Part shown: positions 10,390 through 64,000 of the stretch, in pieces | Numbering within the stretch: position 1 is the stretch's first letter | Layout of the letters: each line of letters starts with the position of its first letter | Assembly (NCBI RefSeq): GCF_900116905.1 | Contig: NZ_FPCG01000002.1 | Span: 248,001 to 312,000, forward strand | Reading direction: 5' to 3' | Source of the DNA: Micrococcus terreus | GTDB lineage: Bacteria; Actinomycetota; Actinomycetes; Actinomycetales; Micrococcaceae | Length of the DNA stretch: 64,000 bases | Translations under genes and position numbers: made by a program | Notes under the pieces: model-generated | Seen by the model: only the letters and a program-made list of their open reading frames with translations | Database searches by the model: none | Told to the model about the DNA's origin: nothing

Positions 10390-11202
10390 TCAGTGGTCGT
10401 TCGCCGAGATCGCGCCCTGGATGTAGATGGCGGTCAGCAGGGTGAAGACGAAGGCCTGGAGGTACATGATCAGCAGCTCAAGGAAGTACATGGCCACCGA
10501 GCCGAGGATCACCAGGATGCCGGTGCCCTGCAGGGCCAGGTTGCCGGTCTCGGTGATCAGGTAGGCGGCGCCGGCACCGGCCAGCATCACGATCATGTGG
10601 CCGGAGAGCATGGTGGCCATCAGACGCAGGGAGTGGGTCAGCGGGCGCACGATGAAGGTGGAGATGATCTCCAGCGGCACCAGGAGCGGCAGGATCCATC
10701 CGGGGACACCGGAGGGGACCACGGCGAGCTTGAAGTACTTCAGCCCGTGGTGGCGGATGCCCACGCCGATCCAGATGATGTAGACGATCAGCGCCAGCGC
10801 ATAGGCCGAGCCGGCATGCGAGAAGGAGGGCAGCTGCAGGAAGGGGATGGCGCCGAAGATGTTGTTCAGCAGCACGAAGAAGAACAGGCCGAACAGCAGG
10901 GGGACCCAGGGGCGGAAGTCCTTCTCGCCGATGATGTCGCGGCCCATGCCGTTGCGGACGAAGGAGTAGCCGGACTCGGCCAGCCACTGCATCTTGGTGG
11001 GGACCAGCTTGGGCCGACGCATCGCGATCATGAAGAACGCCGAGATCAGGATCACCGAGAGGATGACCATGAGCATCTGCTTGCCGAAGCCGGTGCCGTA
11101 TTCGGCCGCCCAGGGCAGGATGTCGGGCAGGTGAGCATCACTGATGGTCGGGGGCGTGAATCCGCCCTGGTCAGTGGTGCTGGCGAGCACGATCGGGAGC
11201 AC
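10390..11202 (-). CDS. atpB: ATP synthase Fo subunit a (proton channel)
   Basis: 270 residues from GTG 11202, which has AGAGAGGAC upstream. Five to six membrane helices. The half-channel helix carries the essential Arg in PLTHSLRLMATMLSGHMIVM, and the last helices (LLIMYLQAFVFTLLTAIYIQ) match the family. It is separated from the upstream atpI-like gene by 240 bp, so the structural operon may have its own promoter here. Confidence 0.96.
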   Translation of the reverse strand: MLPIVLASTTDQGGFTPPTISDAHLPDILPWAAEYGTGFGKQMLMVILSVILISAFFMIAMRRPKLVPTKMQWLAESGYSFVRNGMGRDIIGEKDFRPWVPLLFGLFFFVLLNNIFGAIPFLQLPSFSHAGSAYALALIVYIIWIGVGIRHHGLKYFKLAVVPSGVPGWILPLLVPLEIISTFIVRPLTHSLRLMATMLSGHMIVMLAGAGAAYLITETGNLALQGTGILVILGSVAMYFLELLIMYLQAFVFTLLTAIYIQGAISANDH

Positions 11203-12983: not shown

Positions 12984-13720
12984 GGAGTGGAGCGCTCTCC
13001 TGACTGCGGTGCGGACTCGGCGTCCTCAGCTGCATCAGCGGCGTCGGCGGACTCGGCGTCCGGGGCATCCACCGCGTCCGCCTCGAAGGCCTCCGGCACC
13101 AGGGCCCGCAGCGTCTCCTCGGGGATCGCACCTTCGCGCACCACGCGGAAGGGCTCCACCGTGCAGTCCACGATGGTCGAGGGCTGCTGGCTGGAGCGCT
13201 CGCCGCCGTCCAGGTAGACGGCCACGGACTCGCCGAGCATCTGCTGGGCCTCGTCCACGGTGGTGGCCGCCGGCATGCCGGTCCGGTTGGCGCTGGAGAC
13301 GGCCAGCGGGCCGGTGGCCTGCAGCAGTCCCCGGGTGATCTCATCAGCCGGCACGCGCAGGGCCACAGTGCCCCGGGTCTCCCCCAGGTCCCAGGTCAGG
13401 GTCGGCTGAGAGTGCACGATCAGCGTCAGCGCGCCGGGCCAGAACTCCCGGGCCAGCTCCCGCGCCGCCTCAGGCACATCCATGGCCAGTCCATCCAGCA
13501 CATCGGCACTGCCCATCAGCACGGGCGGAGGCATGGTGCGCCCCCGGCCCTTGGCGGCCAGCAGCACGGCCACGGCCTGCGGGGAGAAGGCGTCGGCGCC
13601 GATCCCGTAGACGGTGTCCGTGGGCAGCACCACGCACTCTCGCCGGGACAGGGCCTCACGGGCGGTCTCGATCCCCTCGGCCAGCCGTTCGGGGTCGGTG
13701 CAGTCGATTCGCTCACTCAC
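12980..13720 (-). CDS. L-threonylcarbamoyladenylate synthase (TsaC/Sua5/YwlC family)
   Basis: 246 residues. It makes threonylcarbamoyl-AMP from threonine, bicarbonate and ATP for the t6A modification of tRNAs reading ANN codons. The YrdC-fold signature is clear: CVVLPTDTVYGIGADAFSPQ, LLAAKGRGRTMPPPVLMGS and GPLAVSSANRTGMPAATTVD. The last ~35 residues are an acidic Ala/Asp/Ser tail (DAPDAESADAADAAEDAESA) that is probably disordered. It overlaps both prmC and the wecA-like gene by 4 nt. Confidence 0.94.
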   Translation of the reverse strand: MSERIDCTDPERLAEGIETAREALSRRECVVLPTDTVYGIGADAFSPQAVAVLLAAKGRGRTMPPPVLMGSADVLDGLAMDVPEAARELAREFWPGALTLIVHSQPTLTWDLGETRGTVALRVPADEITRGLLQATGPLAVSSANRTGMPAATTVDEAQQMLGESVAVYLDGGERSSQQPSTIVDCTVEPFRVVREGAIPEETLRALVPEAFEADAVDAPDAESADAADAAEDAESAPQSGERSTP

Positions 13721-15885: not shown

Positions 15886-18039
15886 CTAGTCCTCGCCCTT
15901 GAGTCCCAGAGTGGTCTTGGAGACCAGCATGAGGAACTCGGCGTTGGACTGGGTGTCCTTGATCTTGTTGGTGAGCAGCTCCAGCGCCTGCTGGGTGTCC
16001 AGACCCGAGAGCACGCGACGCAGCTTCCACATGATCTTGACCTCTTCGGAGGAGAGCAGGTTCTCCTCGCGCCGGGTGCCGGAGGCGTTGACGTCCACCG
16101 CCGGGAAGATGCGCTTGTCCGCCAGCTGACGGGACAGACGCAGCTCCATGTTGCCGGTGCCCTTGAACTCCTCGAAGATGACCTCGTCCATCTTGGACCC
16201 GGTCTCCACCAGAGCCGTGGCCAGGATGGTCAGCGAGCCGCCGTTCTCGATGTTGCGGGCGGCGCCGAAGAACCGCTTGGGCGGGTACAGCGCCGAGGAG
16301 TCCACACCGCCGGAGAGGATGCGGCCCGAGGCGGGAGCGGCCAGGTTGTAGGCACGGCCCAGACGGGTCATGGAGTCCAGGAGCACGACGACGTCACGCC
16401 CCATCTCCACGAGTCGCTTGGCGCGCTCGATGGCCAGTTCCGCCACGGTGGTGTGGTCGTCAGCCGGACGGTCGAAGGTGGAGGCGATGACCTCGCCCTT
16501 GACCGAACGCTGCATGTCGGTCACCTCCTCCGGGCGCTCGTCCACCAGCACCATCATCAGGTGCACCTCAGGGTTGTTGGTGGTGATCGCGTTGGCGATG
16601 GACTGCAGGATCATGGTCTTGCCCGCCTTGGGGGGCGAGACGATCAGACCGCGCTGGCCCTTGCCGATGGGCGCCACCAGATCGATCACGCGCGGACCGA
16701 TCTTCTTGGGCTCGGTCTCCAGGCGCAGCCGCTCCTGCGGGTACAGCGGCACCAGCTTGGAGAAGTCCTGACGAGTGGGGTTCTCCTCGGCCGGCTGCCC
16801 GTTGACGCTGGTCAGCTTGATCAGCGCATTGAACTTCTGGCGGTTGGAGTTGTTCTGGCTCTCGCCCTCACGGGGTGCACGGATGGCGCCCATCACGGCG
16901 TCGCCCTTGCGCAGCCCGTACTTCTTGACCATGGACAGCGAGACGTAGACGTCGTTCTGACCGGGCAGGTAGCCGGAGGTGCGGACGAAGGCGTAGTTGT
17001 CCAGCACGTCCAGAATGCCGGCCACGGGCAGCAGGACATCATCCTCGGTCAGCTCGGTGTCATCCACCTCGGGGCCGCCGCGGCCACGACGGTTGCGTCC
17101 GCGCTCGTTGCGATCCTGGCGATCGTTGCGGTTGCGGTTGCGGCGGTTGCGGCGCGAGCCGCCCTCGTCGTCGCGGTCGTTGCGGTTCTGACGGTCGTTG
17201 CGGTCACCGCGGTTCGAGGAGCCGCCCTGATCGCTGCGGTCATGGCGATCCTGACGATCGTCGTTGCGCTGGGAACGCTCGCCGCGGTCGTTCCGGTCGG
17301 ACTTCTCGTTGCGGTCCTGGCGATCCTGACGGTCATCCTGGCGATCGCCCCGGTTCGACCGGTCGTTGCGGCTGCGGCGTTCCCCGCGCTCGCCGCGGCC
17401 GCGGCCGTTCTGGTCCTGCTCGGAGGACTCCCCGCCGGTGTTCTGGTCCTGTCCGCCCTGCTCCTGCGGAGCGGACTGCTCCTGACCGGACGGGCCGGAG
17501 CCCTGCTGGTCCTGCTGACCACGGGAGGAACGCCCACGGCGGCTGCGGCCGGAGGGCTGGTCCTGACCACCCTGCTCCTCGGTCGAGGCGGCCTGCTGGT
17601 CCCCAGCGGTGGACTCGGAGCCGGACTCCTGGGCCGGAGCGGACTCGGCCGCACCGGCGGGCGACTCGGCCCGGCGTCCGCGCGAACGGCGGCCCCGAGT
17701 GGGAGCGGACTCGCCCTCACCGGCGGATTCGGCCGGGGCAGACGATGCGGGAGCGGACTCGGCCCCGCCCTGGTCGGCGGTCTTCTCGGCGGAGTCCTCG
17801 CTCGAGGCGGCGGAGCTGCGCTGGGCGGCCTCACGGTCGGCGACGGCGCCGCCGCGCTGATGACGTGAGATGGCCTCGACCAGATCGGACTTGCGCATGC
17901 GCGAGCCGCCGGTGATGCCGAGCTGCGAGGCCAGAGCCTGCAGCTGGGCCAGCTTGAGGCCGGCCAACCCGTTCGAGGCGGCCGGGCGCTGCGCGGCAGA
18001 GTCCTCGGTGCTCACGGGGGTGTCAGTGGTGTCGGTCAC
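15886..18039 (-). CDS. rho: Transcription termination factor Rho with long disordered insert
   Basis: 717 residues against about 420 in E. coli. GTG 18039 is chosen because GAGAAGGAAACC lies just upstream. A Rho N-terminal SAP-like domain ([19 protein letters not shown]) lies at about 25-65. Residues about 70-320 are a low-complexity Asp/Arg/Asn/Ser/Gln-rich insert with repeated RNDRNDRQDR-type units. It is followed by the RNA-binding cold-shock domain, the P-loop [18 protein letters not shown] near 466, and Walker [19 protein letters not shown]. Such inserts are known in actinobacterial Rho, where they raise RNA affinity and promote phase separation in some species. The ATPase core has all expected motifs. 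Confidence 0.96.
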
Positions 18040-56268: not shown

Positions 56269-56316
56269 GATCCGTGGTGGGCCCCTGGTGCACCGGCGAA
56301 GCAGCACGGGCACGAC

Positions 56317-56352
56317 GAAGGCCCCCAGACCGTCGCCGGTCTGAGGGCCTTC
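56317..56352 (+). terminator. Terminator of the aroA-fluC operon
   Basis: A 15-bp stem with one mismatch (56317-56331 with 56338-56352), 49 bp after the last stop. Confidence 0.75.
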
Positions 56353-56401
56353 ACCACCGCTGTGCAGCGGCAGAAACGTGGAGACGGCGGGAATATCCCC
56401 C

Positions 56402-56521
56402 ATTCGTTTCTGACTAGGGCAAATGCTCGACACGGCGTGAGACTGTCTGACAGGTGACTACTAAAGACCCCGGCGCGGTTGCCGCCGCCCGGGGTGTGGT
56501 CCGACCGATCAGGAGTCGAAC
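56402..56521 (+). promoter_or_regulatory. Structured promoter/leader of the 41-residue membrane protein
   Basis: Contains the palindrome CTGTCTGACAG (56443-56453) just before a possible -10 (TACTAA, 56458-56463), then a hairpin at 56467-56495 (7 bp, one bulge, 4 bp, 6-nt loop), and the Shine-Dalgarno AGGAG at 56511. The layout suggests a repressor site plus an RNA hairpin near the ribosome site. I do not recognise it as a known riboswitch. Confidence 0.45.
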
Positions 56522-56647
56522 ATGCCTCAGCCTACCCTCCCCCGCTCCCACCGTCACCCGGTGGTCGATGCGCTCACGAACATTCTGTTGACCGTGGCCC
56601 TCTTCGCCGCCGTCTACTCCCCCACCATCATCGCCGGCCCGTCCTGA
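56522..56647 (+). CDS. 41-residue single-helix membrane protein, unknown
   Basis: Begins MPQPTLPRSHRHPVVDALTN, then one membrane helix (ILLTVALFAAVYSPTIIA) and ends GPS. GGAG 6 nt before the ATG is good. The conserved-looking architecture (basic/His N-terminus, helix, short tail) and its elaborate leader suggest a real small gene. It lies between the chromosomal fluC operon and the mobile element; which of the two it belongs to is not clear. Confidence 0.6.
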   Translation: MPQPTLPRSHRHPVVDALTNILLTVALFAAVYSPTIIAGPS

Positions 56648-57030
56648 CCGCTCTCAGCCCCTCCGGACCCCCGGGGGCGGCTGGGCACTGTCCACGGGCG
56701 TTTACCGCGTCCCGTGGGCGGTTCCGGGCCTCCCGTCCGCGTGTTCCTGCCCCTCGACGTACTCAATGGGGCGCGGTATAGGCATAGCAACGTTCAGGGG
56801 CGAACCGCCGTCCCACCGTCCGCAATGGCCATGCGGTCGGGTCCACCACAGCTCACCCTCGAATCGGGGGTGGGCCACTGGTGCTACTCCGAATGATGGT
56901 TGCCGGGGTTCGGGGGTGATTTGAAGGGATGAAGGGACCACAGCAAGGCCAGCCCCGCTAGGGGTCCGCTCTACCTTGTCCGGGCCACCAGCTAGACCAC
57001 CAGTAACGCCACCACGACGGGAGCATCACG
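56648..57030. other. Gene-poor 383 bp at the left side of the mobile element
   Basis: No convincing gene. A hairpin (CCACGGG 56692-56698 with CCCGTGG 56711-56717) may terminate the 41-residue gene. From about 56750 the sequence becomes less GC-rich, with several TAG/TAT patches. The left junction of the element is probably here, but without the right end no att repeat can be identified. Confidence 0.4.
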
Positions 57031-57306
57031 ATGACCACCACAGCAGCACCGGCAGCACCGGCAGGATCCACTCACCGCACTGTGCCTGATCCGTTCGTGG
57101 ATGGTGTCAGCTACAGCAAATGGGACGGGCCTAGCGTCGGCGCAGACGACAGCACACGGGTATCGACCTACTGGGAACCTGAGAGCGGCGTCGTGCTCGC
57201 CGTGGACGGCAATGGCACCGAGCGCGGCGGCTTCGACATCACACCAGAGTCAGCACGGCGACTGATCGCTGATCTGACGACGGTTCTCGCACGGCTCGGC
57301 AGCTGA
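57031..57306 (+). CDS. 91-residue protein of the element, unknown
   Basis: Begins MTTTAAPAAPAGSTHRTVPD and ends with a short helix, FDITPESARRLIADLTTVLA. GGGAG 7 nt upstream of the ATG. The middle (VSTYWEPESGVVLAVDGNG) looks like a small beta sheet. The C-terminal ARRL-x3-L pattern resembles that of the 89-residue protein at 61071-61340 and suggests a shared small fold. One of only two plus-strand genes in the element. Confidence 0.6.
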   Translation: MTTTAAPAAPAGSTHRTVPDPFVDGVSYSKWDGPSVGADDSTRVSTYWEPESGVVLAVDGNGTERGGFDITPESARRLIADLTTVLARLGS

Positions 57307-57313
57307 ACGCAGC

Positions 57314-57363
57314 TCGCATTTCAAATGCGACCGCAGGGCCACCGGGCTTCGGTTCGGTGACCC
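57314..57363 (+). terminator. Double inverted repeat after the 91-residue gene
   Basis: TCGCATTT-C-AAATGCGA (57314-57330) is a perfect palindrome; a second 9-bp stem with one mismatch (57336-57344 with 57355-57363) follows. Together they likely terminate transcription. Confidence 0.5.
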
Positions 57364-57659
57364 TTGTGTGTTCCCACAGCCTCGGCGGCGATGTCGCGGG
57401 ACTTGTGGCCCCAGTTACCTTGTGGTCCCGGGACCACAAGGTCCGGCCCTGCCTTGCCGGTCCTCTTTCGCTCCAACGCTTTCGGCTTCTCCAGTGCCTC
57501 CAGCCGCTGGGCGAGGTCCATGCCGGTGATCGTGTCGGAGGTGGGCAGGGGTGCGGGGGTGCCGGTGGGGGCAGGTGCTTCCGGAGGAAGCACCTGGAGA
57601 TCCCCTATCACGTTCGAGCGATCCACCCCCACCACCGGCGCGATGGCCCTGGTGGTCAG
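57321..57659 (-). pseudogene. Truncated HTH/ParB-like protein remnant
   Basis: A minus-strand frame of about 112 codons without a proper start (a stop precedes LTTRAIAP). The beginning, TTRAIAPVVGVDRSNVIGDL, is a helix-turn-helix of the type found at the C-terminal side of ParB-like and replication-linked proteins of actinobacterial elements. The later KSRDIAAEAVGT is a second recognisable DNA-binding segment, after which the frame runs out into unrelated residues. Both ends look cut, so I read it as a decayed gene. It contains the 26-bp palindrome. Confidence 0.45.
57417..57442. repeat. 26-bp perfect palindrome
   Basis: The two 13-nt halves (ACCTTGTGGTCCC and its exact reverse complement) abut with no spacer. 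It lies inside the HTH/ParB-like remnant. Perfect uninterrupted palindromes of this length are rare by chance and would suit a site-specific protein or cruciform. Confidence 0.8.
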
Positions 57660-58258
57660 TCCTCACACGCAGGTAACACCCGGCTCATGCGGTGCTTGTA
57701 GTGGTTCGAGTCGATCCCGGATGTATCGCGCATGACGACGGTATCCAGCTGTTCCACACTCATGCACGACATGTTGATAACCCATAGGGCGAAACTGTCC
57801 CGCTCATCGTCTGTCAGCTCAGTCTGCACGTGAACACGGACCGTGCCGGACGAAACGTCTTCGACCTCTACGATCCAGAATCCGGGGCTGCTCGCTTGCA
57901 GTGCTCGGAAAGAATCCACGCCGTTTGCTTCTAGTAGCGCGGTCTCGACACCCCCTGCCAGCGACTCGACTGCTTCAGCGGTGGTCTCAGGCGCGACTGA
58001 CGGCGACGGGGTGACGGACTCCGACGGTTCTGTCGATTCTTGGGGAGACGAAGCAGCCGTGCCCTGCTGATTCGTCTCTGATGGACTAACGGACGGGTCT
58101 GGAGAGATCGACCCTCCACCGGACGTCAGGAGGGCGAACAGAAGGACCACAGCAGCGGTGATTCCCACGACAGTCAGGGCGAACATCGGGGCACTCAGAC
58201 CCTTGCGCTTCTCGGGCTGCTGGTGTGGCTGCGGGGGCCATCCTTGCTGGTAACTCAT
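57656..58258 (-). CDS. Single-helix anchored protein, unknown
   Basis: 200 residues. A short Gln/Pro-rich cytoplasmic N-terminus (MSYQQGWPPQPHQQPEKRKG), one membrane helix (APMFALTVVGITAAVVLLFA), a Ser/Pro/Glu/Thr linker of about 60 residues and a C-terminal extracellular domain of about 90 residues with two Cys (NMSCMSVEQ, VLPACED) likely forming a disulfide. The layout resembles DUF4333-type or small secreted actinobacterial proteins, but no family is certain. Stop abuts the HTH remnant. Confidence 0.7.
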   Translation of the reverse strand: MSYQQGWPPQPHQQPEKRKGLSAPMFALTVVGITAAVVLLFALLTSGGGSISPDPSVSPSETNQQGTAASSPQESTEPSESVTPSPSVAPETTAEAVESLAGGVETALLEANGVDSFRALQASSPGFWIVEVEDVSSGTVRVHVQTELTDDERDSFALWVINMSCMSVEQLDTVVMRDTSGIDSNHYKHRMSRVLPACED

Positions 58259-58380
58259 GACTCACCCTCTCGCGTCCGCCTCTCGGATACGGCCACCCTA
58301 CCGACAGCGTCCGGCAACTCAGGTGACGGTGATGCCACGGGGTGCGCGGGGCGGTGTCATGGCAAGATGAACGGGTGGAG

Positions 58381-58737
58381 ATGACAGTCGCAGCCCTAGA
58401 GGCTTACATGCTGACGGTGCCCCTGTTGGTCGGTGCAGGAGCACTCGCAGCGGGGCAGCGATTGAAGTGGGACGGAACACGCTTCGGCTTCCACGTGTTC
58501 CGCATTTTCTCAGTCGTGATGGGGGTGGCGGTCACGGTTGGAATGCTCGTCGCTTTCAACGGTCTCTCTACGGGTGGCGTTTCCGGTCTAGCGACTCTGG
58601 TGGTCTCGCTGGGGTTCGGCGGTGCTCTTGGATACTTCCTCGTGAGCATCATCCGACCGGCGATTCTTATTGAGTTCGACGGTGGCAGCGGCCAGCCCCG
58701 CGACGGGGATAAGCACACCGATCAGGACGGCGATTAG
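58381..58737 (+). CDS. Three-helix membrane protein, unknown
   Basis: 118 residues from ATG 58381; a GTG at 58375 two codons earlier is also possible. Hydrophobic segments: MLTVPLLVGAGALAAGQ, FSVVMGVAVTVGMLVAF and LATLVVSLGFGGALGYFLVS. A hydrophilic tail (GQPRDGDKHTDQDGD) ends the protein. Codon use is strong in this frame. It overlaps the minus-strand 56-residue gene by 150 bp. Confidence 0.6.
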   Translation: MTVAALEAYMLTVPLLVGAGALAAGQRLKWDGTRFGFHVFRIFSVVMGVAVTVGMLVAFNGLSTGGVSGLATLVVSLGFGGALGYFLVSIIRPAILIEFDGGSGQPRDGDKHTDQDGD

Positions 58738-58758
58738 GGGTAGAACGTCCGTGTTCAT
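58588..58758 (-). CDS. 56-residue single-helix membrane protein of the element
   Basis: Begins MNTDVLPLIAVLIGVLIPVA, with one N-terminal helix, then a basic/acidic tail (NKNRRSDDAHEEVSKSTAEP). The ATG overlaps the stop of the zinc-finger gene as ATGA and has GGAG 5 nt upstream, so it fits the element operon well. Small N-terminal-helix proteins of this type are common in phage and could be holin-like, but nothing specific is seen. Confidence 0.55.
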   Translation of the reverse strand: MNTDVLPLIAVLIGVLIPVAGLAAATVELNKNRRSDDAHEEVSKSTAEPQRDHQSR

Positions 58759-58931
58759 TTCTTCTCCGATGATCGTTTGGACAGGCACTCGGCGCACCAG
58801 GGGCCGGCGTAGTCCTCGGGGGTGAATCTCTTGCGACAACCGGCACAGGACCGGCCCACCGTGTGACGGCGCACGATAGGCCGGCCTGACCGTTCCTTGC
58901 GGTTATCGGCCTTGCGCTTGATCCGGGCCAT
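58755..58931 (-). CDS. 58-residue CxxC zinc-finger protein of the element
   Basis: Begins MARIKRKADNRKERSGRPIV; the zinc site is CAGC then WCAEC, a four-Cys ribbon of 18 residues between pairs. Basic N-terminus suggests nucleic acid binding. Starts 2 nt after the terminase-like gene stop and overlaps the next gene by ATGA, so operon context supports it although it is short. Confidence 0.65.
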   Translation of the reverse strand: MARIKRKADNRKERSGRPIVRRHTVGRSCAGCRKRFTPEDYAGPWCAECLSKRSSEKK

Positions 58932-58933
58932 CC

Positions 58934-59338
58934 TCAGGCCCTCCCGCGCTTTCGACCTGCCTCAGTGTCGTGTCCTGCCCACCGGGCTTCAGCGGCCTTG
59001 CGAGCGGATACCTGCCGGGGCGTGGGCAGTGTCTCGGCTTTCTCATCGGTCAGGTCCGGAAGTGCCAGTGCCGCCAGCAGCTTGTGCAGCACCTGCCGCT
59101 GTCCTCGCGCTTCCCCTAGTGCGGGGTGCACGACGGTCTGGCCCATGCTTCCCCGCACTGTTGCCCCGTCCGTCTCCACGGCCAGGGCCAGGGCGTCCAG
59201 CTGATCCAAGGTCCGGCACGCCTCGGCCAGCAGCTGCACCTCGCTGTCAGTCAGTTCATAGTCACGGACGGTGCGCCGCCAGAATCCAGCTCCACGCTCT
59301 CCCAGTCCGCCAGGCATCTTCGGTCGTTTGGTCGTCAT
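58934..59338 (-). CDS. Phage terminase small subunit-like protein (P27 family)
   Basis: 134 residues from ATG 59338 (GGAG 6 nt upstream). The helical pattern GLGERGAGFWRRTVRDYELT, EVQLLAEACRTLDQLDALAL, VHPALGEARGQRQVLHKLLA is typical of P27-type small terminases of actinobacterial phages, with a basic Arg/Lys tail containing ARKAAEARWAGHDTEAGRKR. Small terminases select the DNA to be packaged. A second, diverged copy lies upstream at 59517. No large terminase follows. Confidence 0.75.
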   Translation of the reverse strand: MTTKRPKMPGGLGERGAGFWRRTVRDYELTDSEVQLLAEACRTLDQLDALALAVETDGATVRGSMGQTVVHPALGEARGQRQVLHKLLAALALPDLTDEKAETLPTPRQVSARKAAEARWAGHDTEAGRKRGRA

Positions 59339-59347
59339 CGTTGCTCC

Positions 59348-59530
59348 TCAGCAGAGTGATCGGGGTTCAGAAATGGAGTGCTCAGCATGGCCGCGCTGTT
59401 CAGAGACCTCACCGGCGGTGGTGAGTCGTAGGGGCCCCGGTGGCACTGGGAGGGGGTCTGCGAGGGACATGCGCAGCTCTCTCGTGATGGTTCGACCGGG
59501 CTTCGGGTAGGTCCGTCTAGCCCTTGCCAT
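59348..59530 (-). CDS. Possible 60-residue protein between two terminase-like genes
   Basis: Begins MARARRTYPKPGRTITRELR, basic then Pro-rich. Starts 14 nt inside the end of the upstream terminase-like gene and ends 10 nt before the next start, filling the gap exactly. No weak or strong motif. Could be a chance frame. Confidence 0.35.
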   Translation of the reverse strand: MARARRTYPKPGRTITRELRMSLADPLPVPPGPLRLTTAGEVSEQRGHAEHSISEPRSLC

Positions 59531-59888
59531 TGGCCTTCACGCTGTTCGCTAGTGCTCGCTGTCGGGCCTGTCGCTGTCGATCTGACGGTGAGCTGCTGCC
59601 CTCCCCGTAGACGACGACGCCGAGCTGACCGAGTAGTCGGGCCACTGAGTCGCGGTGCTTGCGCACTTCATCCCACAGTCGATTCACCACGGGCTGTCCG
59701 GTCGATCCTGTGGTGATCAGTTCCGAGCTGGTGGCGGCGGCGCGTAGGGTGTCCAGCTCATCGGTAGCGCGGCATGCCTCGCAGAGTAGTGCGGCCTCTG
59801 TTGTCGTCAGTGCTATCTGTGCTGTGATGCTCTCCCACAGCTTGCGTCCAGCGGCTGCCAGGTCGTCAGGTGCTGCGGTCTCTGTCAT
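59517..59888 (-). CDS. Second phage terminase small subunit-like protein (P27 family)
   Basis: 123 residues from ATG 59888. It has the same helical plan as its neighbour: AAGRKLWESITAQIALTTTE, AALLCEACRATDELDTLRAA, TGQPVVNRLWDEVRKHRDSV, then a Gln/Arg-rich tail (SDRQRQARQRALANSVKANG). Sequence identity between the two is low, so the duplication is old or the two came separately. The ATG overlaps the stop of a 32-residue frame as ATGA. Confidence 0.7.
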   Translation of the reverse strand: MTETAAPDDLAAAGRKLWESITAQIALTTTEAALLCEACRATDELDTLRAAATSSELITTGSTGQPVVNRLWDEVRKHRDSVARLLGQLGVVVYGEGSSSPSDRQRQARQRALANSVKANGKG

Positions 59889-59983
59889 GGTCTCAGCTCT
59901 CGGTCGTCGTCGAAAAACGTGGGGCCGGTGAAGTCCCCCCATCCGTACGGATCAAAATCTCCCTCCCCGGCGGTACTCGTCAT
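59885..59983 (-). CDS. 32-residue acidic protein before the terminase-like genes
   Basis: Starts MTSTAGEGDFDPYGWGDFTG and ends in an acidic run (FFDDDRELRP). ATGA overlap with the next gene supports it. No Shine-Dalgarno before its ATG (GGGCCCACC), which weakens the case. Could be a leader peptide coupling translation. Confidence 0.4.
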   Translation of the reverse strand: MTSTAGEGDFDPYGWGDFTGPTFFDDDRELRP

Positions 59984-60064
59984 GGAGGTGGGCCCGCCCC
60001 GACCCGGTGGCGTCCCGCGCTGTCCGTCGCAGTCGCTGTGGACCACGACGGACAGCGCAGAGAC

Positions 60065-60880
60065 TCACAGGGCGACGCGCTCTCGTGCGTGTGCTCGTCC
60101 AGCCTTGGCGACTCGCTCGGCCAGCGTGCTCGGCGTTGCCAGGCTCAGCGCAGCCTTGCCGTACTCACCGCGCGCGATACCGATCAGCACCAGGTCAGCA
60201 CCGATGCGTCGAATGTCTGCGGCCAGCTTCCGAATCGCCCGGGTCTGCTCCAGTTGCGGTTCATTGGCGACCTCATTGCCCACCCCGCGCACCTGCTCCA
60301 CTACCGGGGTCGGCAGCTCCACCAGTGGCAGCAGTGCGTTCAGATCAGATGGATAGTCGCTGTTCCCGTTCAAGCTTCGGAAGATTCCCGCGTAGGCGTT
60401 GAACCGTGCCAGGGACTCGCGCACGGTGTTCAGGGCGGCACCAGCATCGGCCTGAATCACCGCCTCAGCATCCAGTGCAGATGCACCGGCGGGAAGCTTG
60501 CCCACGGCTTGGGTGAAGGTCTTGACCAGCTTGTCGAACGGGGCCTTCAGATCCAGGGTGGCCTGCTCCAGATAGTCCGGCATGGCAGCCCGGACCACGT
60601 ACGGGAACACTTCGCTGAACTCTTTACGCAGAGCGTCTGCGGCCTGTGCCTGTCGAATCTGCTCCAGGGCATCGGCGTGCCAGACGTCCACGTCATCGGC
60701 CTGTAGTGCTTCCTGAGCGAGAGTGTTGGCGACCTGACGGGCGGTAGGGGCACTGTCGATCTTGTGCTGAATCTCGGTGCCCAGACTCGGCGCGGTCAGA
60801 CCGGCCTGCCGATAGGCGGTGATGATGTTGCCCATGTGGTTCAGGTCGGTGGTGATGGGGCGGGAGTAGATGTTGCTCAT
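60065..60880 (-). CDS. 271-residue helical protein of the element, unknown
   Basis: Begins MSNIYSRPITTDLNHMGNII with GAGAGGAAAC upstream. Almost all alpha-helical by composition (Ala/Leu/Gln/Glu rich), no Cys, no membrane segment. Segments such as APFDKLVKTFTQAVGKLPAG and LARFNAYAGIFRSLNG are distinctive but I do not recognise a family. Size and helicity would suit a scaffold or DNA-binding accessory protein; this is speculation. Coupled to the upstream 65-residue gene by ATGA. Confidence 0.75.
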   Translation of the reverse strand: MSNIYSRPITTDLNHMGNIITAYRQAGLTAPSLGTEIQHKIDSAPTARQVANTLAQEALQADDVDVWHADALEQIRQAQAADALRKEFSEVFPYVVRAAMPDYLEQATLDLKAPFDKLVKTFTQAVGKLPAGASALDAEAVIQADAGAALNTVRESLARFNAYAGIFRSLNGNSDYPSDLNALLPLVELPTPVVEQVRGVGNEVANEPQLEQTRAIRKLAADIRRIGADLVLIGIARGEYGKAALSLATPSTLAERVAKAGRAHARERVAL

Positions 60881-61074
60881 GGCGTTTCCTCTCGGTGGGT
60901 GATGCGGTCGTGGTTCTCGGCGTCCATCTGCTCGAACGCTCGCTCTAGTAGTTCGATCCCGGCGACTCTGCGCTGGGCAGCTCGCCTCTGCTGCTCCTGG
61001 GCTTCGAGTCGCTTCTGCTCCAGCGACTCGGCCCACTTGTCGAATCCGGCCTTGAACTCGTCCTGGATGCTCAC
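60877..61074 (-). CDS. 65-residue coiled-coil protein of the element
   Basis: MSIQDEFKAGFDKWAESLEQ followed by a Gln/Arg/Glu-rich helix (KRLEAQEQQRRAAQRRVAG). A single long amphipathic helix, likely oligomeric. Overlaps both neighbours by ATGA. Function unknown. Confidence 0.7.
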   Translation of the reverse strand: MSIQDEFKAGFDKWAESLEQKRLEAQEQQRRAAQRRVAGIELLERAFEQMDAENHDRITHREETP

Positions 61075-61340
61075 GGGTAGACCTCGGCGTCGTCGGGGTT
61101 CAGGCGGATGGACTCGATGGCGTCCGCCAACTGGAGGGCCAGGCGGCGTGCGTCCTCGACGTGGAGCATCTGCCGGGGCCTGCCGAGACTGAAGATCCCA
61201 ACACCGGCGAACGTGCTGCCGTCGCTACGGGTGATGACCACGCGGTCAGAGTTGATGGTCTGCGAGATCTCTTGGTTGTGTTCCCACATGCGGGGCTGGG
61301 TCGTGAACCGCTTGGGCTTGGGGTTGGTTGGCATGGTCAT
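61071..61340 (-). CDS. 89-residue protein of the element, unknown
   Basis: Begins MTMPTNPKPKRFTTQPRMWE; a small beta-rich centre (VVITRSDGSTFAGVGIF) then a helix (VEDARRLALQLADAIESIRL). The end resembles that of the 91-residue protein at 57031. ATGA overlaps on both sides make it a firm operon member. Confidence 0.7.
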   Translation of the reverse strand: MTMPTNPKPKRFTTQPRMWEHNQEISQTINSDRVVITRSDGSTFAGVGIFSLGRPRQMLHVEDARRLALQLADAIESIRLNPDDAEVYP

Positions 61341-61510
61341 TCGTCCTCCGGCATCTCGTGCGGCAGATCAGGTTCAGGTGTGCCGTCAGCGGCCACCAGA
61401 CCGGGCAACGTGCGCTGTCCGGGGATCGGTAGGTGTTCGGGCAGGGTCAGTCCGTGGCGACGCTCTAGAGCGGCCCAGAAGGCATCTGCCGGTGGGGTGC
61501 GTGGGGTCAT
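61337..61510 (-). CDS. 57-residue protein of the element
   Basis: Begins MTPRTPPADAFWAALERRHG, then LTLPEHLPIPGQRTLPGLVA and an acidic end (PDLPHEMPEDE). First gene after the repeat array; AGGAACC lies before the ATG and the stop overlaps the next start as ATGA. Function unknown. Confidence 0.6.
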   Translation of the reverse strand: MTPRTPPADAFWAALERRHGLTLPEHLPIPGQRTLPGLVAADGTPEPDLPHEMPEDE

Positions 61511-61574
61511 GGATGGTTCCTGTTCTCGGTCGGAATGAGCCGACGGACTTCGGGCAGAACTAGGTCGAACCCCG

Positions 61575-61648
61575 AACCCCGTCTATAGACGGGGTTGACG
61601 GGGTTCGTAGTCCGTCGCGACGGGGTTAGACGGGGTTAGACGGGGTTC
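61575..61648. repeat. Iteron-like array of GACGGGGTT and a 22-bp palindrome
   Basis: Five direct copies of GACGGGGTT: two in tandem (61588-61605) and three with an exact 10-bp period (61619, 61629, 61639; unit GACGGGGTTA). One inverted copy (61575-61583) makes a perfect 22-bp palindrome with the first direct copy (arms AACCCCGTCTA and TAGACGGGGTT). The array covers the 3' end of the ATPase gene and the promoter region of the downstream genes. Candidate replication origin or operator. Confidence 0.8.
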
Positions 61649-62745
61649 GGTTCTGAAGGCAGGTAGTACGCCTTGCCGCCGCCTCGGCCCTGCCGCTCGA
61701 CCTCGACGATCAGACCCTGAGCAACGGCCTGTCGTCGGGCAGTGCGGATAGCTGAGACGGCACCGGGAAGTGTCTCCAGACCTGAGCCTGAGACCCCGGG
61801 GTGCAGTCCGACGTACTCCACGATCTGAGGAAGTAGCTCGGCTGTCTGCGCGGCGTCTCGGCTCTGCTTCCGATTGCCCTCGGTCAGCGTGAGTCGCCGG
61901 GTGGATTCGTCATAGGACAGAGCACGCTCGGCCTCATCGACGTTGCGACCGAACGCGGAGAAGTACCGGGGCGACGATGGATCATCGGCGTCCTGACGTA
62001 CCAGCTTCCACGTGGATTCGGGCCAGTCCTGCAACCGTGAGTCACCCCGGGATCGTTCCCCGCTGTGGCCCATGTGATGCACGACGACGGCCTCTGTCGC
62101 CTCGGACTCCTTCAGGAAGGCATCGAAGGCCACCAGGAAGCGTCCGGCCTCGCGGTTCTCATCCAGCCCCAACGCGTCCAGGACCGGGCGCAGACAGTCG
62201 AACAGCACCACTCCGGGACTGTGCAGGGCCTCGGCCCACTGGGCGCGTACAGAGCCGTCCAGCAGATCGAACGATCCGACACTGCCGCGCAGAGACACCA
62301 GGCGCACGGCATCGGTGTTCTGTATGTTCTGTGCCCTGAGCCAGCTGCGCAGCATCCGTTCATCCAGCTCGTTGTCGATCAGCGTGACCGTCGTGGTCTG
62401 GTGGACCTCGAACGTCTCTAGGAACGGGTCACCGTCCACCAGGGAGCGGATCAGGTTGCCTAGCAACGTGGTCTTGCCGGACTTGTACTGTGCGGCCAGG
62501 ATCACCCGGGCACCAGCGGTCAGCAGTCCCTCGATCACATACTGAGTCCGTTCATCCGGGATGGACAGGAACTCAGTCAGAGTGCGAACCGGGGGCAGGG
62601 TGACCGGCGTGCGGCTCTCAGCCTCGACCAGCTTCCGGGCCTCGGCACGTGCTCGCATGCGCTGGGCTTCGCGGTAGACCTCCATCGTGAAGTCAGGTAG
62701 CTCGACCTCGATCTGCTCCAGGTCCAGCGGTGATAGCTCACTCAT
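61636..62745 (-). CDS. AAA family ATPase, RepA-like (DnaB-type hexameric helicase fold)
   Basis: 369 residues from ATG 62745. P-loop AAQYKSGKTTLLGNLIRSLV near 85; Walker B VVLFDCLRPVLDALGLDENR; AVVVHHMGHSGERSRGDSRL, then QDWPESTWKL, the HH...RGxSxLxDWPD block typical of AAA_25/RepA-like ATPases. A C-terminal winged-helix-like part (TAELLPQIVEYVGLHPGVSG, RRQAVAQGLIVEVERQG) could bind DNA. Such proteins serve replication of plasmids, phages and satellites. The gene ends inside the GACGGGGTT array, supporting a replication role. Confidence 0.85.
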   Translation of the reverse strand: MSELSPLDLEQIEVELPDFTMEVYREAQRMRARAEARKLVEAESRTPVTLPPVRTLTEFLSIPDERTQYVIEGLLTAGARVILAAQYKSGKTTLLGNLIRSLVDGDPFLETFEVHQTTTVTLIDNELDERMLRSWLRAQNIQNTDAVRLVSLRGSVGSFDLLDGSVRAQWAEALHSPGVVLFDCLRPVLDALGLDENREAGRFLVAFDAFLKESEATEAVVVHHMGHSGERSRGDSRLQDWPESTWKLVRQDADDPSSPRYFSAFGRNVDEAERALSYDESTRRLTLTEGNRKQSRDAAQTAELLPQIVEYVGLHPGVSGSGLETLPGAVSAIRTARRQAVAQGLIVEVERQGRGGGKAYYLPSEPNPV

Positions 62746-62957
62746 GCGTTCACCCCCTGCCTGAATCGCTCGACCGACCGGCGGTGTGCAGCTTCGGCAC
62801 CTTCCCACCCTGAGAACATGCGTTCTGCTGACGCGGAGATGCGTGGGTGAACGTGAGGGCAGGACATCTCAGTGCGGCCCTGATCCAGTCCGGCGCGGTA
62901 GCCGTCCTGCCAGATGATCTGCTCATGCTCGATGGTGTTGCGGATGTCGGGGTTCAT
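62742..62957 (-). CDS. 71-residue protein of the element
   Basis: MNPDIRNTIEHEQIIWQDGY then RAGLDQGRTEMSCPHVHPRI. ATG 62957; overlaps the ATPase gene by ATGA and the upstream gene likewise. A Cys-x-His-x-His cluster (CPHVHP) could bind metal. Function unknown. Confidence 0.65.
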   Translation of the reverse strand: MNPDIRNTIEHEQIIWQDGYRAGLDQGRTEMSCPHVHPRISASAERMFSGWEGAEAAHRRSVERFRQGVNA

Positions 62958-63244
62958 GCGGCACCGTCCCACCCGAGTCCACGGACCGGGGCAAGCTTGC
63001 ACAGGGTGATCGACGCGGCCTGTCCGCGCTCCACAGCCTTATCCACAGCCCTCTGAGCGGCATGGAGCGACAGGAAAAACCGACGGCGGTAACGGACTTC
63101 TCCGGCGACCTTATGGGCCACCATGACGACATGAACACCGTTCAACATATCCACGGCATCGGGTAGACTAAGGGTGTCGCCAGCCAACGACTTTCGATCT
63201 GCCTCGGGTGCCAGCTCGGGGCGGATTTTCTTTGCCTCAGGCAT
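62954..63244 (-). CDS. 96-residue protein of the element
   Basis: From ATG 63244 (MPEAKKIRPELAPEADRKSL). The second half, VMVAHKVAGEVRYRRRFFLS, LHAAQRAVDKAVERGQAAS, is a small alpha/beta unit seen in many unnamed actinobacteriophage proteins. Overlaps the upstream stop by 8 nt. Function unknown. Confidence 0.65.
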   Translation of the reverse strand: MPEAKKIRPELAPEADRKSLAGDTLSLPDAVDMLNGVHVVMVAHKVAGEVRYRRRFFLSLHAAQRAVDKAVERGQAASITLCKLAPVRGLGWDGAA

Positions 63245-63530
63245 GTTCACGGCCACCCCCTCGCCGGTCAGCGCGACGGGTTGCACGCTCGCCCGTGGGG
63301 TCGGCATAGGTCAGCACGACGGCCAGCGCGTCCGGGTCCAGCTCCACCACGTAGGAGAAGTTGCGGACGATCCAGGACCGAGACAGGTGCGGCATCCAGG
63401 ACTGCACCACGGCCACGGCATCACGCTTGGACAGACCGCACAGCTCCGACTGCATCTGAGCACAGTCATCAACCGTGAGGCTTCCGGCGGACGTAGCTCG
63501 GCGGGTCCGGGATTCGGTGAGCACACTCAT
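63237..63530 (-). CDS. 97-residue protein of the element
   Basis: Begins MSVLTESRTRRATSAGSLTV; middle VQSWMPHLSRSWIVRNFSYV and VELDPDALAVVLTYADPTGE. Overlaps the excisionase gene by ATGA. No family recognised. Confidence 0.65.
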   Translation of the reverse strand: MSVLTESRTRRATSAGSLTVDDCAQMQSELCGLSKRDAVAVVQSWMPHLSRSWIVRNFSYVVELDPDALAVVLTYADPTGERATRRADRRGGGREHA

Positions 63531-63784
63531 GCAGCACCACCACCGGAGACGTGCGCATAGGTGGCGGGGTTGACCTCGCGGCGCATCTTGCGCAGGTCGG
63601 CAGGGTCGATACGCAGGACACGGGCACCGTAGAAGTAGGCTCGCAGCTCGCCGCGTGAGATCCAGCGGCGGACGGTCGGCACAGACGTGCCGGTCAGGTC
63701 CGCAACTTCCTTGACGGTCAGTTGTCGTTCGATAGTGCCGCGGGCATGAGAATGGCCCACGGTGGAGGACTGTACGGATGGCAC
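63527..63784 (-). CDS. Excisionase-like helix-turn-helix DNA-binding protein
   Basis: 85 residues from GTG 63784, with GAGAGGGG about 10 nt upstream. The MerR/excisionase-type HTH is clear: QLTVKEVADLTGTSVPTVRR, WISRGELRAYFYGARVLRID, then PADLRKMRREV. Such proteins control excision or early transcription of integrated elements. It heads the minus-strand gene train. Confidence 0.85.
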   Translation of the reverse strand: MPSVQSSTVGHSHARGTIERQLTVKEVADLTGTSVPTVRRWISRGELRAYFYGARVLRIDPADLRKMRREVNPATYAHVSGGGAA

Positions 63785-63895
63785 GATGATTGATCCCCTC
63801 TCGGGTCTCAACCGGGTGCCAGATCCGGTGTCCGGGATTCCATCCGCGGGCCTAGTAGACGACTACAGGATACCACCTGTGACGCATGGTGATCT
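63785..63895 (-). promoter_or_regulatory. Promoter/operator region of the element operon
   Basis: TATCCT on the minus strand (63867-63872) is a good -10. The palindrome GTAGTCGTCTAC (63855-63866) lies right at the expected start of transcription, an arrangement suited to repressor binding. Leader about 75 nt. Confidence 0.5.
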
Positions 63896-64000
63896 TCAGG
63901 CCGTGACGATGACCTCCGCATGCCCGGCCTTGATGTCCCGTGTGACCTGTTCGCGGTCGATCAGCGCGTCATGGATGTGGTCACAACTCAGCGTCAGGTT
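63896..64000 (-). CDS. C-terminal end of a further element gene (cut by window edge)
   Basis: 34 codons open to the edge, ending DREQVTRDIKAGHAEVIVTA and a TGA. It includes SCDHIHDALID. Too short for a family call; its position upstream of the excisionase-like gene is where an integrase or replication gene often lies. Confidence 0.5.
   Translation of the reverse strand, partial: NLTLSCDHIHDALIDREQVTRDIKAGHAEVIVTA

Follow-up and report, generated by a model that had tools for sequence, protein, structure and literature searches.

The Rep helicases of SaPIs read iterons lying directly behind their own gene by means of a C-terminal domain, and they are regarded as self-loading (PMC7581432). In PICIs the origin is the region immediately 3' of rep, where two sets of iterons are found around an AT-rich region (PMC6092414). 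A possible role for winged helices was raised by Kazlauskas et al. (2018), who suggested that they might serve in origin recognition when placed behind helicases of diverse families, among them the RepA and DnaB types (PMC5862659); the term "iteron" does not occur in the accessible text of that paper. For extrachromosomal mycobacterial prophages, Wetzel et al. (2020) found no repeat motifs in the regions they examined (PMC7157519). Our literature search, which had most subscription journals outside its reach, returned no description of arrays such as the one reported below.

The stretch of DNA analysed here, referred to as the window, comprises 64 kb of the Micrococcus terreus genome and contains an array of short repeats, which begins at the point where the gene of a RepA-type helicase (ATPase) has finished encoding its C-terminal winged helix. 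We consider it about 75% probable that this array serves a small integrated mobile element as its replication origin and is bound by the winged helix of the helicase encoded upstream. The initial annotation had already suggested an origin of plasmid or phage type, and comparison with relatives supports that reading, as both the position and the spacing of the array recur. The evidence consists of the recurrence of arrays behind winged-helix codons, the recurrence of their spacing, the predicted folds, a modest statistical link between repeat unit and wing, the Prim-Pol fusions among the relatives scanned, the likeness to SaPI and PICI origins and the repeats of plasmid pDJL3.

An exact-word count found GACGGGGTT exactly six times in the window, all within the 73 bp at 61575–61647. 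One copy is on the minus strand (61575) and five are on the plus strand (61588, 61597, 61619, 61629, and 61639), which confirms the five direct units and one inverted unit annotated initially. The expected number in the window is 0.50, and six copies were reached by none of 100 shuffles (maximum 2). A tandem GACGGGGTT pair is unique to the array in the 3.09-Mb assembly (two overlapping matches, both at the array). A partial inverted unit, CGAACCCCG, could also be identified at 61566–61574, so that the array proper covers ∼61566–61650. Read in gene direction (minus strand), the order is 10-10-22-9-15(inverted) bp followed by the partial inverted unit. The array thus has the helically phased direct repeats next to a replication gene that mark an iteron origin, with five direct units and one inverted unit, steps of 9–10 bp and a neighbouring gene for a helicase of RepA fold. 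The palindrome of 22 bp and the exact 10-bp period of the last three direct units were likewise found as first described, the palindrome being perfect. The array also overlaps the ATPase gene at its 3' end, the stop codon of which is at 61636–61638, and precedes further genes, the next small ORF in gene direction having its ATG at 61508–61510, again in agreement with the initial annotation. When one mismatch is tolerated, some 9-mer reaches the copy number of the array in 5 of 30 controls taken from the GC-rich window; the case therefore rests on the exact count and on the relatives, not on the degenerate count.

No clear AT-rich unwinding stretch is seen beside the array of the window (42% AT at most), and this was counted against the origin reading. 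The word TTATCCACA, the DnaA-box consensus, has a single perfect copy inside the element at 63039–63047, 1.4 kb from the array. It was set aside and may be due to chance, since 0.25 copies are expected in the window and 21 of 100 shuffles had at least one. A different cluster of short repeats is present at 17104–17420 of the window (CGCAACGA five times and CAGGACCA four times).

Table 1. Features of the array and of the element that carries it (window coordinates).
Feature	Position	Strand	Basis
Left attachment site, 18-bp copy of tmRNA 3' end	56377..56394	+	Sequence match
Terminase small-subunit-like gene	58934..59338	-	phrog_1496 E 1.2e-21; Terminase_4 just over cut-off; under TIGR01558 cut-off
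Second terminase small-subunit-like gene	59517..59942	-	phrog_1496 E 1e-16; under cut-offs of Terminase_4 and TIGR01558
Iteron array: 5 direct, 1 inverted, 1 partial inverted unit	61566..61650	-	Repeat and exact-word counts
Perfect 22-bp palindrome AACCCCGTCTA/TAGACGGGGTT, from inverted unit and fifth direct unit	61575..61596	.	Inverted-repeat search
Direct units at 61619, 61629 and 61639, spaced by exactly 10 bp	61619..61647	+	Exact-word count
RepA-type (AAA_25) helicase, 369 aa, presumed initiator	61636..62745	-	Pfam AAA_25 E 5.7e-23; fold match RSF1010 RepA
C-terminal winged helix of helicase, residues 292–369, presumed iteron-binding domain	61639..61872	-	Predicted models, fold comparison
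AlpA/excisionase-like HTH protein	63527..63811	-	TIGR01764 E 1e-11, over cut-off; HTH_17

The element harbouring the array is ∼9.4 kb long and is bounded on both sides by an 18-bp copy of the tmRNA 3' end; like PICIs it thus has an attachment site and an integrase of its own. It extends from 56377 to the end of the window (64000) and on to position 10751 of locus L003. The other copy of the tmRNA end adjoins a tyrosine integrase gene ∼1.7 kb past the right end of the window. A search for an empty attachment site in the genus did not establish one; the left flank was matched in six of eight genomes, its own included, and in the others over pieces of 25–74 bp only. Only one of the two terminase small-subunit-like genes passes a curated cut-off (Pfam Terminase_4), and the two are the only phrog_1496 matches in the genome. 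PF03354, the single large terminase family searched, has no match in the genome, and none of the element proteins scanned is a recognised large terminase or capsid protein. A terminase small subunit without a large terminase of its own (as judged by the PF03354 search) is a PICI trait, as is the gene order of an AlpA/excisionase-like gene, rep and, where the helicase gene ends, an array presumed to act as the origin. By its gene set the element is probably a phage satellite, which would depend on a helper. A survey of actinobacterial prophages points out that satellites or PICIs may be present among elements of <15 kb (PMC10023795). One further element protein of 200 aa (57656–58258, minus strand) gave weak matches to the Zot-like phrog_197 (E 0.0034) and to the defence model PD-T4-6 (E 0.0024), probably reflecting low complexity.

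The locus shares with SaPIs and PICIs both the setting, a small integrated element with an integrase, an AlpA/xis-type gene and a terminase small subunit, and the position of the iterons immediately 3' of the helicase gene as in the Rep-ori modules of SaPIbov1, SaPI5, and EcCICFT073, with reading by the C-terminal domain presumed here (PMC6092414, PMC7581432). Unlike the SaPI Reps, which are of the DUF927/D5 type, the helicase of the window is of the RecA-fold RepA type with AAA_25 as its only Pfam match, and it has no primase domain. Unlike in PICIs, the two groups of units are 22 bp apart with no clear AT-rich region between or beside them. By analogy the module may work like a PICI origin, and its membership in the PICI class is at most presumptive given the different Rep family and the lack of a clear AT-rich region.

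Other described proteins resemble parts of the system. Many relatives of the helicase have a Prim-Pol, a RepA-type helicase and a C-terminal winged helix and so resemble the PrimQH-type primase/helicase/winged-helix proteins, for which origin recognition by the winged helix was suggested (PMC5862659). The PrimQH-type proteins differ from the protein of the window in their N-terminal primase: here Pfam matched AAA_25 alone, and no N-terminal primase domain was found, while a Prim-Pol is fused in front of the helicase in 6 of 10 relatives scanned. The RepA origins of the extrachromosomal mycobacterial prophages are similar in being phage-borne and actinobacterial and in their presumed location, inside repA or beside it; their RepA proteins are set apart by description, with a length of 320–350 aa and an HTH predicted at residues 95–132 (PMC7157519).

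The predicted structure of the helicase (mean pLDDT 82) has the RecA-fold core of a hexameric RepA helicase. Its best fold match is RSF1010 RepA (1olo; Z 20.0, rmsd 3.5 Å, 226 residues), and matches other than RepA, KaiC among them, score Z 18.0 and below. In RSF1010 the iterons of oriV are read by a separate protein, RepC, whereas in our predicted models the winged helix is part of the helicase itself. When modelled alone, the C-terminal 85 residues (mean pLDDT 89) resemble winged helices with Z 9.8 and below, including MarR (9.3) and the winged helix of Rpa2 (9.1). Foldseek gave E values no better than 0.015 for this model. Searched by sequence against solved structures, the single helicase protein had no match and a profile had weak ones only (best E 0.058). 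The structure alignments A2 and A3 contained 21 and 32 sequences, which is part of the set fetched. Of the two binders proposed in the initial annotation, the ATPase is the probable one, through its C-terminal winged helix; no result of the analysis pointed to the excisionase-like protein.

Relatives of the ATPase were collected from GTDB contigs (10 loci), from IMG/VR (14 and 53 loci) and from phage (6) and plasmid (1) records, of which one phage and the plasmid were taken for analysis. Among whole genomes, a relative was present in 19 of 295 from the family, 22 of 396 from the order and 20 of 396 from the phylum, the own genome being counted each time. The set of 97 sequences, which included the window and came from all these sources other than the genomes of the order, was reduced to 67 at 85% core identity, and 66 of these were testable, one being too short. 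The 550 bp from the winged-helix codons on were searched for arrays, and an array was called significant if its 9-mer count was reached by at most 1 of 100 dinucleotide shuffles. The winged-helix codons served as anchor, since anchoring at the stop codon misses arrays inside an open frame.

Of the 65 non-redundant relatives that were testable, 47 had a significant array in the corresponding position (48 of 66 with the window). At least seven copies were present in 33 of the 65 relatives vs 11 of 1889 controls drawn from these loci. Among 11 new loci collected later, with the genomes of the order as one source, one was too short and 8 of the 10 testable ones had an array. As expected for an iteron origin, the repeats thus recur beside the same gene (47/65, and 8/10 later). 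The arrays start at a median of 240 nt past the codon for residue 292 (quartiles 222 and 288; 48 arrays, with the search beginning at 120). This corresponds roughly to the end of the winged helix (residue 362, 210 nt), regardless of whether the reading frame has stopped. Of the 48 arrays, 25 lie entirely behind the stop codon, and 16 have all their units in the open frame continuing past the winged helix. In L006 (11006–11260), L008 (11107–11360), and L017 (9148–9340) the helicase ORF reads on through the array for hundreds of bases; such covered arrays may be origins inside the initiator gene or merely stop-poor stretches of GC-rich DNA.

The 18 of 65 relatives without a significant array in the stretch tested, which include the close relatives L029 and L004 (Arthrobacter sp. 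HY1533), were counted against the origin reading. One of them is the Rhodococcus plasmid pDJL3 (L047), a circular record of 15.9 kb with an ATPase relative and phage genes. It carries AGTGCGTT/AACGCAC repeats at 13430–13590, ∼0.67 kb behind the stop codon and past a convergent gene, and some of the other misses may therefore also be displaced arrays. The minimum of the cumulative GC skew of pDJL3 is near its array, but was not counted as gene direction switches there too. AT content at the arrays is raised only slightly, by a mean of 3–7 points over 48 loci, and this lack of a clearly AT-rich unwinding stretch was also counted against the origin reading. An Arthrobacter sp. Br18 element (L010, 7231–14594) combines a helicase and array with a WhiB-like gene, a terminase small subunit, a major head protein and, as judged by eye, a serine-recombinase-like gene, and is perhaps a capsid-encoding satellite. 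Near the start of the IMG/VR locus L019 (8–300) there is a dense cluster of 12 copies of AGCGTCCC, unrelated to the helicase array.

The unit word varies from locus to locus (GAGTGCGCC, CAGTTCGCC, CAGCTCGTT, GGTTCCCCG, GTGTCCATC, and others), while a common layout recurs: direct units with a period of ∼10 bp, a gap of ∼23 bp, two units 8–9 bp apart and an inverted unit ∼15 bp further on. Examples are 10-11-22-9-14(inverted) in L005, 8-11-23-8-14(inv) in L061, 9-11-23-8-17(inv) in L025, 8-10-11-23-8-14(inv) in L022 and 8-10-10-23-8-17(inv) in L024, with an extra inverted unit within the gap in L005, L024, and L025. The layout was scored against a template made from the window's own array (six fixed slots, tolerance 2 bp, strand required), and the spacings and strands were permuted 400 times within each locus as the null. 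Both this test and the Mantel tests below were restricted to loci where an array was significant, which were 48 including the window and 8 of the 10 testable later ones.

Summed over the 47 relatives, the template score was 184 vs 142.2 for the permutations (sd 3.8, maximum 154 in 400). At least five of the six slots were matched by 16 of the 47, where 1.5 were expected and at most 6 occurred in a permutation; nine of these 16 have p < 0.05 singly. After removal of the two loci with a window-like unit, 14 of 45 still matched at least five slots. The eight later arrays reached a summed score of 31 vs 23.5 (sd 1.5), which was equalled in 0 of 400 permutations. Four of them matched at least five slots, including L157 with all six and a different unit word, and the remaining four matched two or three. 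Fewer than five slots in 31 of 47 relatives and in four of the eight later arrays were counted against the origin reading. Shared descent inflates the spacing tests, yet the unit words are not kept among the relatives. Lack of conserved spacing had been named beforehand as one half of what would refute the initial reading; instead, position and spacing recur with other unit words.

The similarity of units was correlated with the similarity of winged helices when the helicase core was controlled for (partial Mantel r 0.185, p 0.005; 48 loci). The correlation of units with the core given the winged helix was r 0.157 (p 0.03; 48 loci), as plain shared descent would give. Using classes of wing motif picked after the unit/wing table had been seen, AGT(G/T)CG units were found at 12 of the 16 loci with GPR-like wings vs 4 of the 32 others, and AACC-containing units at 4 of the 5 loci with GRGGG-like wings, which is the type of the window, vs 3 of the 43 others. 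AACC-containing units were also noted by eye in the later loci L156 and L157 (GRGGG/GKGGG wings). Exceptions are L032, with a GRGGG wing and a AAGTGCGC unit, and L061, with the unit of the window and a different wing. Judged from these sequence comparisons, the unit appears to follow the winged helix to a modest degree.

An operator or autoregulatory site seems an unlikely explanation for the array. It would bind the ATPase or another element protein and mainly control the ATPase operon or the downstream small and terminase genes. A palindrome with phased repeats is operator-like too, the ATPase gene and the genes that come next in its direction have the array between them, and an initiator could do both jobs. 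Yet the array is located behind the ATPase gene and not before it, and the unit tracks the winged helix of the helicase. The 16 arrays with all units inside the open frame would be oddly placed for an operator of the next gene. The more specific proposal of the initial annotation, an operator for the terminase-containing genes, has become less likely, as many relatives likewise have their array behind the ATPase gene and a scan for sigma-70-type promoters found none in 61300–61900.

A packaging site (pac/cos-like) read by the terminase small subunits of the element is regarded as quite improbable: two such genes are found 1.6 kb away in the same element and the L010 element has one as well, but array position is tied to the winged-helix codons and unit type to the wing. 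About as improbable is a partition site (parS-like) or a transcription terminator or RNA hairpin. In the mycobacteriophages Miko and Rachaly, repA is closely followed by a parS that has five direct repeats (PMC7157519), whereas the element proteins scanned here include no ParA/ParB-like match. As RNA, the array strand folds better than its shuffles (z -4.7), as inverted repeats must; no terminator-like site with a T run was found in 61300–61900, however, nor any Rfam match at gathering score in 56300–64000, and a hairpin leaves the fixed helical spacing of the direct units unexplained.

If the array is the origin of the element, which is probably a phage satellite, a mechanism can be suggested in which the hexameric RepA-type helicase encoded directly upstream would bind the iterons through its own C-terminal winged helix. 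The 10-bp helical period would put several helicase subunits on one face of the DNA, and the close pair together with the inverted unit beyond it might orient a second group of subunits. The observed phasing would fit such an arrangement, with several winged helices on one face and an inverted group beyond. Upon excision or induction of the element, helicase rings could then assemble and load on the DNA next to the array. From the array, its recurrence and the predicted folds we infer binding, hexamer formation, ring loading, unwinding and replication.

A broader proposal, for which we see the chances as evenly balanced, is that proteins of this kind form a widespread group of actinobacterial self-loading initiators, in which a hexameric helicase of RecA fold (RepA type) itself carries the winged helix that reads the iterons. 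What sets their origins would be a conserved arrangement in three dimensions, with units on one face, a gap of two turns, a close pair and an inverted unit, rather than the sequence. The unit could then drift with its reading head while the ring-loading geometry stayed fixed.

Origin finding by the winged-helix helicases of mobile elements has been suggested before, and in the accessible text of that work the sites are not located for the RepA type (PMC5862659). Candidate target sites have now been placed in dozens of phage-like contigs, in chromosomal elements and in one phage-like circular plasmid. If the proposal is true, it would provide a rule for locating origins in such elements, and would extend the SaPI arrangement to a second helicase family. 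It might also yield orthogonal replicons for actinobacterial vectors, in which the unit and its reading head are swapped together.
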